A stretch of 64,000 nt of DNA from the NCBI RefSeq assembly GCF_014931565.1, contig NZ_CP063353.1, forward strand, positions 2,976,001 to 3,040,000. The letters are read 5' to 3'. The position numbers and the translations under genes are program-made. Below are positions 28,608 to 57,614 of the stretch, piece by piece; the first letter of the stretch is position 1, and each line of letters begins with the position of its first letter. The DNA is from Clostridium sp. 'deep sea'. Lineage in GTDB: Bacteria; Bacillota; UBA994; PWPR01. Under the pieces are notes generated by a model. It saw only the letters and a program-made list of their open reading frames with translations. It was not told where the DNA came from and ran no database searches.

Positions 28608-29288
28608 ATGAATGTAAGCTCAATAATATTAGCAGCTGGTAAAGGAACTAGAATGAACACCTCGAGTAATAAGATACTCTTAACTCTTGGTGGACATTCT
28701 CTTTTATCTTATAGCGTTAATATTTTTAATAAAGCCGAAAAAATAAACGAAATAATAATTGTACATGCCTTAAATGAAAAAAAACATTTAATAGAAAGTC
28801 TCAAAGAAATTAACTTTGTTAAACCAGTAAAGTATGTTTTAGGAGGTAAATCACGCCAAGAGTCTGTTCAAAACGGAATAAAAGCCGTAGATAACAGCTG
28901 TGAATATATAGCAATTCACGATGGGGCACGCCCCTTTATATCAGTTGATTTTCTTAATGATATACTAATTAAAGCCATTGAAACAGGTGCTGTGATACCT
29001 GCGTTACCTGTGAAAGATACAATTAAAATGGTTGAAAACAATAAAGTTATAGGTACCTTAGAGCGGAAAAAACTCTATGCTGTACAAACCCCACAAATTT
29101 TTAAACTTAAAACATTTTTAATACATCAAAACAAACAAATAGCTGTAACTGATGACGCTTCATTAATTGAGGGTAATTACCCTGTTACAATTTTTCCTGG
29201 AAGTTATTATAATAAAAAAATAACTACTCCAGAGGATCTTTTATTTGCCGAGGCAGTTATAAGAAAGGTTGAACATCTAAAATGGTAA
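28608..29288 (+). CDS. ispD: 2-C-methyl-D-erythritol 4-phosphate cytidylyltransferase
   Basis: 226 aa. It converts MEP and CTP to CDP-ME in the non-mevalonate isoprenoid pathway. The nucleotide-binding motif SIILAAGKGTRM at the N-terminus, the GGKSRQESVQNG block and the IHDGARPF signature are all present, as is VTDDASLIE. It has no clear own promoter and overlaps ispF by 7 bases, so the two pathway enzymes are co-translated. Confidence 0.95.
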   Translation: MNVSSIILAAGKGTRMNTSSNKILLTLGGHSLLSYSVNIFNKAEKINEIIIVHALNEKKHLIESLKEINFVKPVKYVLGGKSRQESVQNGIKAVDNSCEYIAIHDGARPFISVDFLNDILIKAIETGAVIPALPVKDTIKMVENNKVIGTLERKKLYAVQTPQIFKLKTFLIHQNKQIAVTDDASLIEGNYPVTIFPGSYYNKKITTPEDLLFAEAVIRKVEHLKW

Positions 29289-30181
29289 AAACGGGATTTG
29301 GCATAGATATTCACCAGCTAAAGCAAGGTAGAAAATGCATTTTAGGGGGAATTGAAATACCCTCAGATATTGGACCATATGGACATTCAGATGCAGATGT
29401 AGTAATTCATGCGCTAATAGATGGATTATTAGGTGCTACGGCTCTTGGTGATATTGGGCAGTGGTTTCCAGATACAGATGATAAATATAAAGATATTGAT
29501 AGTGCAATTTTACTTACAGAAGTTGTAAATACCCTCGGCCAAAAAAACTATATAATTAACCATATAGATATAAATATAGTAGCTGAAAAGCCTAAAATTG
29601 CCCCTTATGTTGTTGCAATAAGAGAGAACCTAGCTAGTCTATTAAGAGTAAATTTTAACTCTGTTAGTGTTAAAGCAACTACTGCTGAAAAAATAGGTTT
29701 TATAGGTAGAAAAGAAGGCATAATGGCAACGGCTACTGTAACAATATTTGAACAAACAAATAATAAAAAAAAACTAGACTATAAAGTAGACTATAAAAAA
29801 TTAACTCCTATGGCACTTGCCTATATGGGTGATGCTGTTTTAGAGCTTTATGTAAGAAGGTATCTTTTATCAAGGGGAGTAAAGAAAGGTGCCCAGCTCC
29901 AAAAATTAGCCTTAGAATTTGTGTCAGCTAAAGCCCAAGCCCAAATGATTAAAGATAATATGCACTTGCTTACTGAAAAAGAGCATGATGTTTGGCGCTG
30001 GGGTAGAAACTCAAGGGGTGGTAATGTGCCCAAAAACACTGATCCAGTAAGCTATAGATTCAGCACAGGACTAGAGACCCTTATTGGTTATATTTATTTT
30101 AGTGAAGATATGGAACGTTTAGAGGAGCTTATAAACATCTTAATAGAAAATAAAAAAAATAAAGTGGAGGAACTAAAATGA
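29282..30181 (+). CDS. ispF: Fusion: IspF (MEcPP synthase) + Mini-ribonuclease III (MrnC)
   Basis: 299 aa, about twice the length of IspF. Residues 1-157 are a complete 2-C-methyl-D-erythritol 2,4-cyclodiphosphate synthase, with metal ligands in GIDIHQL and GHSDADV and the [11 protein letters not shown] motif. After a short lysine-rich linker ([14 protein letters not shown]), residues about 172-295 are a complete Mini-III RNase, the dimeric enzyme that matures 23S r[23 protein letters not shown] holds the catalytic Asp, and [17 protein letters not shown] and [15 protein letters not shown] the conserved core with the second acidic residue. Usually mrnC is a separate gene after cysS. There is no stop or frameshift between the halves. 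It overlaps thyX by 4 bases. Confidence 0.95.
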
Positions 30182-30849
30182 TAAAAGTTAACTTGCTTGC
30201 TCATACCCCCAACCCAGAGAGAACAGTAGCAGCAGCTGCACGTTTGTGTTATTCAGCTGTTGGTGCTGAAGATTTACACAAAGACTTATCTGAAAAACAA
30301 GTGAAAAACCTAATAAAAAAACTAGGATCAATGGGACACACCTCTACTTTTGAGCATGCCTCATTTACCTTTGCCATAGAGGGAGTAAGTAGAGTATTAA
30401 CTCATCAATTAGTTCGTCATAGAATAGCCTCTTATAGCCAAAAATCTCAGCGTTATGTAACCGAAAAGGATTTTGAGTATATAGTGCCAAAGGCAATTGC
30501 TGAAAACCAAGAAGCCCTAAAAATCTATGAAAAACAAATGCAATCAGCACATGAATCATATGTTAAACTAATGCAATTAGTCCATAAAGAAGACGCCCGT
30601 TATGTATTGCCTAATGCTACAGAGACTAAAATAGTAGTAACAATGAATGCTCGTACTTTATTGCATTTCTTTAGCAAACGTTGCTGCTTAAGAGCCCAAA
30701 CAGAAATAAGAGAACTGGCAGACAAAATGTTAGCTTTAGTTAAAGAAGTAGCACCCAATCTTTTTGAAGTAGCAGGACCCTCATGTGTAACAGAGGGTGT
30801 ATGTTATGAGGGTAAATTAACCTGTGGACGAGCTAAAATAGTGAAGTAA
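30178..30849 (+). CDS. thyX: Flavin-dependent thymidylate synthase ThyX
   Basis: 223 aa. It makes dTMP from dUMP using FAD, NADPH and methylenetetrahydrofolate. The signature RHRxxSxxxxSxR appears as [14 protein letters not shown] (residue about 80). The flanking motifs [36 protein letters not shown] and [12 protein letters not shown] fit the family. The ATGA overlap with the upstream fusion gene suggests one operon. In many related genomes thyX also sits beside rlmB. Confidence 0.96.
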
Positions 30850-30999: not shown

Positions 31000-31734
31000 A
31001 TGCAACTTGAAGGCAGACAATTAGTGATAAGTGCCTTAAAGGAAAACAAACAAATTGAAAAAATACAAATGTTACGAAATGCTTCGGGCGATATAATTAA
31101 TGAAATATACAAACTAGCTAAAGATAAAAGGGTACCAATAATTAGGGTAGAGCGACAAAAACTAAATTCCATAAGTAAAACCAATAATCATCAAGGTGTC
31201 ATAGCTATATTACCAACATGGCAGTATAGCGAATTAGATGATGTACTGACAAAATGCTCCAAAAAAGATGGTTATCCATTTTTACTTATGCTCGACCACT
31301 TAAATGACCCCCATAACTTCGGTTCTATAATAAGAACTGCCGATGCTGCTGGAGTAGATGGTATAATAATTCCACACCGCAGAAGTGTTGGCATAACCGA
31401 GGTAGTAATGAAGGTTAGTGCAGGTGCAATAACCAACGTACCAATTGTAAAGGTAACAAAGCTTAACAATGTACTTCAAGACCTTAAAAAACAAGGTTTT
31501 TGGGTAGTTGGTACCGATGCCAATACCGATAAAATGATTTATGATGTAGACCTAAAAATGCCCATAGTAATGCTAATAGGTAGTGAGGGCAAAGGATTAG
31601 GTAAACCTATAAAAGACAAGTGTGACTTTTTAGTAAAGCTACCCATGAAAGGACACGTATCATCCCTAAACGCCTCAGTAGCGGCAGGGATTTGTATGTT
31701 TGAGGTAGTAAGACAACAAGAGGCTGTTCGATAG
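31000..31734 (+). CDS. rlmB: 23S rRNA (guanosine-2'-O-)-methyltransferase RlmB (SpoU/TrmH family)
   Basis: 244 aa. An N-terminal substrate-binding domain (EGRQLVISALKENKQIEKIQML) is followed by a knotted SpoU methyltransferase domain with its three motifs: LDHLNDPHNFGSIIRTA, IVMLIGSEGKGLG and LPMKGHVSSLNASVAAGICMFE. It starts after AAGGAGGTAG. Its last codons lie inside a 17-bp perfect inverted repeat. 30850-30999 holds no other gene. Confidence 0.95.
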   Translation: MQLEGRQLVISALKENKQIEKIQMLRNASGDIINEIYKLAKDKRVPIIRVERQKLNSISKTNNHQGVIAILPTWQYSELDDVLTKCSKKDGYPFLLMLDHLNDPHNFGSIIRTADAAGVDGIIIPHRRSVGITEVVMKVSAGAITNVPIVKVTKLNNVLQDLKKQGFWVVGTDANTDKMIYDVDLKMPIVMLIGSEGKGLGKPIKDKCDFLVKLPMKGHVSSLNASVAAGICMFEVVRQQEAVR

Positions 31735-31753: not shown

Positions 31754-31761
31754 ATGTATCT

Positions 31762-32520
31762 GCAATGCCCAATATAGGGGATGGCCTTGTGCCATCCTAT
31801 GTTAATTATAAAGTTAAACCCAACAAAAACACTTTCCCCAAAAACAAGTGACTAACCACAAGGTGGGGTCTGGCCTCAACAGGACTAACTTTACCTAATT
31901 ATCTAGTAAACATTATGGCTGAAAGAAATAACTATCTTACAGCACGAGGCCTGACCCCTGTTACAATTAACCCGTTAGGCAATAAGATATCAGTATGTAC
32001 AATTTACATGATAATTAATGCATAAATGCAATATCCAATGTAAGGGATGGCCTTGTGCCATCCTATGTTAATTATAAAGTTAAACCCAACAAAAAACCTC
32101 CCTCCCAAAACGTTTGACCAACCTCAAAGTGGGGTCTGGCCTCAACAGGACTAACTTTACCTAATTATCTAGTAAACATTATGGCTGAAAGAAATAACTA
32201 TATCACCAGCACGAGGCCTGACCCCTGTTACAATTAAACTGTTAGGCAATAAGATATCAGTATGTACAATTTACATGATAATTAATGCATAAATGCAATA
32301 CCCAATGTAGGGGATGGCCTTGTGCCATCCTATGTTAATTATAAAGTTAAACCCAACAAAAACACTTTCCCCAAAAACAAGTGACTAACCACAAGGTGGG
32401 GTCTGGCCTCAACAGGACTAACTTTACCTAATTATCTAGTAAACATTATGGCTAAAAGAAATAACTATCTTACAGCACGAGGCCTGACCCCTGTTACAAT
32501 TAAAGCGTTAGGCAATAATA
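31762..32520 (+). repeat. Tandem array: three copies of a ~267-bp structured repeat
   Basis: The copies start at 31762, 32028 and 32295 (266/267-bp period) and are nearly identical. Each holds a GGATGGC-CTTGT-GCCATCC hairpin (31779, 32045, 32312). Each also holds a long-range inverted repeat, GGGGTCTGGCCTC (31865, 32131, 32398) with GAGGCCTGACCCC (31946, 32213, 32479), ending TGTTACAATTAA..CGTTAGGCAATAA. No coding sequence is present. Confidence 0.9.
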
Positions 32521-36046: not shown

Positions 36047-36131
36047 GGAGAGATGCCCGAGTGGCTAAAGGGGGCGGACTGTAAATCCGTTAGCGAAGCT
36101 TACACTGGTTCGAATCCAGTTCTCTCCACCA
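36047..36131 (+). tRNA. tRNA-Tyr (anticodon GTA)
   Basis: The 5' GGAGAGA pairs with TCTCTCC. The anticodon loop is CTGTAAA, the variable arm is long (class II), the T-loop is GGTTCGAATCC, and CCA is encoded. Confidence 0.97.
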
Positions 36132-36135
36132 ATAC

Positions 36136-36209
36136 GCGGGTGTAGCTCAATGGTAGAGCCCCAGCCTTCCAAGCTGGTCATGAGGGTTCGATTCCCTTCA
36201 CCCGCTCCA
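36136..36209 (+). tRNA. tRNA-Gly (anticodon TCC)
   Basis: GCGGGTG pairs with CACCCGC. The anticodon stem is CCAGC / GCTGG around CTTCCAA, the T-loop is GGTTCGATTCC, and CCA is encoded. It lies 4 bases after tRNA-Tyr. Confidence 0.97.
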
Positions 36210-36248
36210 TTTATTTAAATGGGGTGTTTTTTTTTACCTATAAATTAT

Positions 36249-36324
<76 letters not shown>

Positions 36325-40554: not shown

Positions 40555-40583
40555 TTGACAGATTAAAAATTATATAGTAAAAT
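40555..40583 (+). promoter_or_regulatory. Promoter of rplJ-rplL
   Basis: TTGACA - 17 - TAAAAT. Confidence 0.85.
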
Positions 40584-40590
40584 ACTTTTT

Positions 40591-40707
40591 GGCTGTAGAC
40601 AGTAGGAGCCTTTGGCTTAATATCCTACCGAGGTTCTTAGGTTAATTAATTACGCTATGATGCGTTTGTTATACCTGCCTCTATGTCTATACCATAGAGG
40701 CTTTTTA
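40591..40707 (+). promoter_or_regulatory. Ribosomal protein L10 leader with attenuator
   Basis: GGCTGTAGACAGTAGGAGCC followed by TTAATATCCTACCGAGG is the conserved L10-leader fold that binds the L10-(L7/L12) complex in Firmicutes. A hairpin CCTCTATG / CATAGAGG with TTTTT (40678-40706) is the likely attenuator, giving autogenous control of rplJ-rplL. Confidence 0.85.
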
Positions 40708-40774
40708 ATTTATATAAATTTTTATCGTAACAATTTGATTATACAAATCGCACATTTGTTAAGGAGGTGGAAAA

Positions 40775-57486: not shown

Positions 57487-57614
57487 TAATAACTCTACTA
57501 AGGCTCAAATTTGAGTCATATTAACCTAAATGCTATGAAGCAGAAGGTTGCCACCCTTTATTTGTGGGGAATTTCTGTGGAGCATAGTCCCACTTAAGGA
57601 CAAGGAGGAGAAAA
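57487..57614 (+). promoter_or_regulatory. Gap between tuf copy 2 and rpsJ
   Basis: It holds the perfect 12-base palindrome CTCAAATTTGAG (near 57504) and a GCCACCC / GTGGGG pairing further on. It may be a leader for the S10 operon. No promoter is obvious. Confidence 0.35.

Follow-up and report, generated by a model that had tools for sequence, protein, structure and literature searches.

An in-frame ispF–mrnC fusion in a deep-sea Clostridium lineage, most likely derived from adjacent operon genes

A single open reading frame in Clostridium sp. 'deep sea' (G000) appears to encode both IspF, the MEcPP synthase of isoprenoid biosynthesis, and Mini-ribonuclease III (MrnC), which matures 23S rRNA. 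The locus, which lies within a 64,000-nucleotide stretch of contig NZ_CP063353.1 (positions 2,976,001 to 3,040,000; hereafter the window, to which coordinates refer unless another source is given), raises the questions of whether the two enzymes are really made as one polypeptide, how genes of such different function came to be joined, and whether their joining has functional consequences. The reading that we favour, with a probability of about 85%, is that of a lineage-specific fusion of operon neighbours, so that a single chain carries two enzymes which act independently.

The open reading frame and its two domains

The fusion ORF lies between ispD and thyX, with an rlmB-type methyltransferase gene following (Table 1); the order of the operon up to rlmB is the same in the sister species (G001) and in three other genomes of the class (G003, G004, G008).

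Table 1. Features of the ispD to rlmB region, in window coordinates
Feature	Position	Strand	Basis and remarks
ispD	28608..29288	+	PF01128 and TIGR00453 above cut-offs; separate gene, last bases overlap the fusion start codon
ispF–mrnC fusion ORF	29282..30181 including stop	+	299 aa in one open frame (299 open codons from ATG 29282; stop at 30179-30181); orthologous fusion in G001/L034
IspF (MEcPP synthase) domain	29282..29752	+	residues 1-157; YgbB, TIGR00151, alignment to 5iwx, AF2, Foldseek
linker	29753..29788	+	approximately residues 158-169; A9 run, then TAG in another frame
Mini-RNase III (MrnC) domain	29789..30178	+	approximately residues 170-299; Ribonuclease_3, phmmer, all-helical AF2 model
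thyX	30178..30849	+	PF02511; ATGA overlap with the fusion stop
rlmB-type 23S rRNA 2'-O-methyltransferase (SpoU family)	31000..31734	+	PF00588, PF08032

The N-terminal part of the translated frame matches the Pfam family YgbB (PF02542) at residues 3-155, with 210 bits against a cut-off of 26.7, and scores 198.7 bits with the NCBIfam ispF model (TIGR00151; cut-off 116.45). It aligns without gaps to Bacillus subtilis IspF (5IWX), with 51% identity over 157 aligned columns, and the corresponding half of the predicted structure matches 5iwx with a TM score of 0.97 by target length (Foldseek). The B. subtilis residues Asp9, His11, His43, Asp57, Gly59, Thr133 and Thr134 have been named in work on that enzyme (PMC5821942); at the same numbering all are kept in the fusion, including the metal ligands (D9, H11, H43) and the CMP/ribose contacts (D57, G59, T133, T134). 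By contrast with the fusion, B. subtilis IspF is a stand-alone homotrimer lacking a C-terminal extension.

The C-terminal part, in which Mini-RNase III spans approximately residues 173-290, matches the Pfam family Ribonuclease_3 (PF00636) at residues 178-274 (75.9 bits, cut-off 27). Its best solved relatives are the Mini-III structures 1u61, 4oun and 6tnn (the last as 6tnn_H; phmmer, E 2.5e-29 to 4.4e-27), whereas the class 1 RNase III model TIGR02191 reaches only some 19-20 bits against a cut-off of 166, so that by sequence the C-terminal half is nearer to Mini-III than to class 1 RNase III. No Pfam match to a double-stranded RNA binding domain (dsRBD) was found on the fusion ORF, which stops soon after the RNase III fold. 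The putative catalytic residues D184 (in a GDA motif) and E265 (in STGLE, corresponding to an ST-x-x-E motif) align, respectively, with the Asp that is changed in 6tnn and the Glu that is changed in 4oun, both of which we take to be catalytic, from what is generally known of RNase III enzymes. Thus, in lacking a dsRBD, in its Asp/Glu positions and in its operon neighbourhood (cysS/thyX/rlmB in relatives), the C-terminal half resembles MrnC (RNase III class 4), as represented by the B. subtilis enzyme (4OUN, 6TNN) and 1U61; it differs in carrying an N-terminal IspF. The RNase III domain has been described as making up the whole of Mini-III, without further domains (PMC4357697), a description from which the proteins of G000 and G001 depart, each having IspF N-terminal to MrnC on the same chain.

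In the AF2 monomer model the chain forms two confident domains (mean pLDDT 90; 93-99 within the IspF domain) separated by a linker of low confidence, where pLDDT drops to its minimum (mean 54 at residues 161-170, below 50 at residues 163-166). Judged by sequence, the occurrence of IspF and MrnC on one chain is a true fusion with both sets of active site residues intact. The original prediction, that one unbroken ORF contains both enzymes complete with their catalytic residues, is borne out in each respect, i.e. both families score above their cut-offs on the one 299-residue frame and the residues are present in alignments to 5iwx, 6tnn and 4oun.

Comparison with the sister species

The most direct challenge to such a fusion is that the frame is an artefact of assembly or sequencing, in which two separate genes are joined through a missed stop or through an indel within the A9 run. 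The homopolymer coincides with the junction and is directly followed by a TAG in another frame, and ispF and mrnC abut or overlap in the closest non-fused relatives; a stop or frameshift near position 29760 had been named from the outset as an observation that could overturn the claim. The evidence from the sister species G001 (also L034, JANQLZ010000110.1), which belongs to the same genus and comes from a separate assembly, makes this explanation extremely improbable. The same in-frame fusion is present there, with approximately 75% overall amino-acid identity to that of G000 (76% for IspF, 79% for MrnC), even though its linker differs, having only 33% identity over residues 157-172 and a one-codon in-frame indel, and even though it has A6 in place of A9 at the junction. 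The nonsynonymous differences between the two (pN 0.15 for IspF and 0.13 for MrnC) are far below the synonymous (pS approximately 0.70-0.77). An artefact of the A9 run, whether frameshift or missed stop, was rejected since the fusion is shared by G001, which has no A9, and more generally a missed stop is effectively excluded because two diverged species keep the frame across an unconserved linker, with both sides of it under purifying selection. Further, were the frames separate, Met176 would be the first in-frame start available to mrnC past the junction; no ribosome-binding site is evident for it, and MrnC made from it would be about 10 residues shorter than in relatives. The claim of a continuous frame therefore stands.

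The G001 frame was read from two contigs of the same bin. One of these (C65) covers, in a single frame, the chain from residue 52 onwards, including the linker and the whole of MrnC; the N-terminal part (the first 125 residues) is on the other (C62), which overlaps C65 with strain-level differences. At the reversed end of C65 (L102) the first approximately 75 bases are an inverted, foldback-like sequence, which looks like an assembly artefact that splits the fusion over the two contigs.

A continuous frame may still give rise to more than one product, e.g. if slippage on the A9 run, initiation at the ATG at 29720 or proteolysis in the linker were to free IspF or MrnC alongside the fusion. Several features of the G000 sequence are consistent with such a scheme: a frameshift on the A9 run would end IspF at the TAG that follows in the other frame, the ATG at 29720 has an AGAAGG upstream at a plausible distance, and the linker is lysine-rich and of low confidence in the AF2 model. 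However, G001 has neither the A9/TAG arrangement (having A6) nor the ATG (which is CTT there), and the AGAAGG is accounted for by its being the coding sequence of the GRKEG segment of IspF; overall we regard the production of two products from the one gene as unlikely. Other than the ATG at 29720 there is no in-frame ATG, GTG or TTG between the IspF domain and Met176, and a conserved internal start for MrnC was dropped as a candidate, given the replacement of that ATG by CTT and a linker with no other potential start codon. A single translation product is taken as the default because there is no usable conserved internal start.

No second copy of ispF or of mrnC is present in the G000 genome, which also has ispE and dxr (the MEP-pathway genes tested) and, elsewhere, an ordinary rnc. 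Because neither gene has a second copy, both activities probably depend on the fusion protein. Gene fusions can leave a passive domain, and it could be argued that one half of the chain is a non-enzymatic relic, kept only through its fusion to the other. The single-copy status of each enzyme, the intactness of both active sites, the equal strength of purifying selection on the two halves (pN values as above) and the presence of dxr and ispE all speak against a relic, the probability of which appears minimal.

Operon rearrangement and the probable origin of the fusion

Comparison within the class suggests how the two genes came to be joined. In one family (f2) cysS lies between ispF and mrnC, with gltX there too in G003. 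In another (f3), which has neither cysS nor gltX in the operon, ispF and mrnC are separate but direct neighbours (G004, G006, G008, G010); they are separated by gaps of 21 nt in G008 (where mrnC has a TTG start) and 9 nt in G010, or overlap by 4 nt, as ATGA in G006 and GTGA in G004. The order ispD-ispF-mrnC-thyX-rlmB was read in two of these f3 genomes (G004, G008). The f3 arrangement is thus like that of the fusion in the direct adjacency of the two genes, but unlike it in that the two ORFs remain separate, either through a difference in frame or through an intervening stop.

The original prediction also held that cysS, together with gltX, had been lost. This is so for the locus, but not for the genome, because both genes are present elsewhere in G000 (cysS at G000:C1:792139-793509, L113; gltX at 2046109-2047521); moreover, their departure from the operon predates the fusion, having occurred in a wider clade. 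In G006 cysS is likewise outside the operon (L116, 4333-5745). The cysS sequences of f3 and of the family to which G000 belongs (f1) are 53-56% identical to each other and 33-38% identical to the in-operon f2 cysS of G003, a different type, which suggests that the native cysS was replaced, possibly via horizontal transfer.

The simplest history consistent with these comparisons, we infer, begins with replacement of the in-operon cysS, and its loss from the operon, in a common ancestor of f1 and f3; adjacency followed, and the fusion then came about in f1. The grouping of f1 with f3 rests here on the shared cysS type and the shared adjacency rather than on a species tree. Under such a scheme, cysS (and gltX) would have left the space between ispF and mrnC in the common ancestor, with a cysS of the different type sitting elsewhere; ispF and mrnC would then have become immediate, and subsequently overlapping, neighbours, as they still are in f3; finally, in the f1 genus, a small event would have removed the boundary and put the two genes in one frame. 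The fusion thus most likely arose from operon adjacency, not from linked functions of the two enzymes. The class appears to keep the successive stages, i.e. cysS (in one genome with gltX) between the genes, abutting genes, a 4-nt overlap and fusion, and hence provides a clean natural example of the compaction of an operon leading to a multidomain protein with unrelated functions.

The fusion was found in two genomes only, G000 and G001. A third f1 genome, which is 72% complete, gave no match to either the IspF or the MrnC part. No other fusion was present among the matches listed from 398 genomes of the phylum, in which a fused match would rank top by score, and a non-exhaustive scan of approximately 85,000 species genomes by short peptide patterns gave only the sister species as fused. 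Two candidates with matches extending past residue 180 (L064, L052) were rejected as fusions, there being stop codons after IspF. Our literature search found no description of an IspF–MrnC fusion, and the domain architecture appears to be undescribed before; it is a new domain combination reached by a well-known route, the fusion of adjacent genes.

Fusion of IspF to the product of an operon neighbour has precedent in the bifunctional IspDF enzymes (of Campylobacter jejuni, Helicobacter pylori and others), in which, as here, the partner is natively a dimer. By contrast with IspDF, the partner in the fusion is C-terminal and is an endoribonuclease rather than an enzyme of the MEP pathway, and ispD is a separate gene. 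The IspDF profile NF006899 scores 218 on the fusion against a cut-off of 417; with ispD being a separate ORF, the fusion is not an IspDF. The f2 genome G003 has an IspD–IspF fusion at the same operon position (L118, 1836-2969). Within one class, therefore, ispF is found fused on either side, to ispD in G003 and to mrnC in G000.

Assembly and possible roles of the fused chain

On the favoured reading the 299-residue chain would be made as one product, with a flexible tether of some 12 residues between the IspF and MrnC domains. The IspF domain would carry out its usual reaction, i.e. conversion of CDP-ME2P to MEcPP, as a trimer, and the MrnC domain, dimeric and acting on the 50S precursor, its usual trimming of 23S rRNA ends; MrnC is reported to dimerise and to trim 23S rRNA (PMC8708148; PMC4357697). 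An IspF trimer would probably present three MrnC domains, which may dimerise within or between trimers, one possible assembly being two IspF trimers held together by three MrnC dimers. The activity of both domains, the oligomeric state and the absence of regulatory coupling are proposed here from sequence.

The combination of a trimeric with a dimeric enzyme on one chain had been put forward as a stoichiometric puzzle; it is not a new one, since IspDF already joins dimeric IspD to trimeric IspF. IspD of B. subtilis is a dimer (PMC5821942), and the C. jejuni IspDF, going by the title of a 2004 report by Gabrielsen cited in the same work, joins IspD with trimeric IspF in a hexamer. The fusion would then add to IspDF another case in which to examine how a trimeric and a dimeric enzyme can be accommodated on the same chain.

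It had also been proposed that the fusion joins isoprenoid synthesis to 23S rRNA maturation, which is correct for the polypeptide; no evidence was found for functional coupling. Coupling could take the form of control of MrnC, and so of 50S maturation, by the state of IspF or by an MEP-pathway metabolite, or of a clustering of MrnC by the trimer that gives avidity for the pre-50S particle. That the fusion has been kept until synonymous sites are near saturation, and that both enzymes share an operon with an rRNA methylase, could be seen as consistent with such a role. However, the linker is unconserved and of low confidence, which speaks against a precise interface, and neither an extra domain nor a conserved interface was identified in the fusion. 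Further, the f3 relatives do without it, the simple route via adjacency explains its existence, and among the matches listed from the 398 phylum genomes it is limited to one genus. A fusion that serves coupling is thus, in our view, decidedly improbable, and the specific proposal that IspF was incorporated into a nuclease of ribosome maturation, allowing isoprenoid flux or a trimeric scaffold to tune 23S maturation in this genus, is best treated as speculation with little chance of being correct. Were it true, it would link the supply of lipid precursors to ribosome assembly.

Just past rlmB, at window positions 31761-32518, a 267-bp unit is repeated in tandem 2.8 times (92% match), each copy carrying the same stem-loop, GGGATGGCCTTGTGCCATCC. 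Stretches related to this unit occur at approximately 28 sites across the genome, several being in tandem or clustered, i.e. they form a dispersed repeat family. The window also contains some ordinary features, namely an L10 ribosomal protein leader (40575-40716), an S10-Clostridia leader (57527-57611) and three tRNAs (36047-36321).
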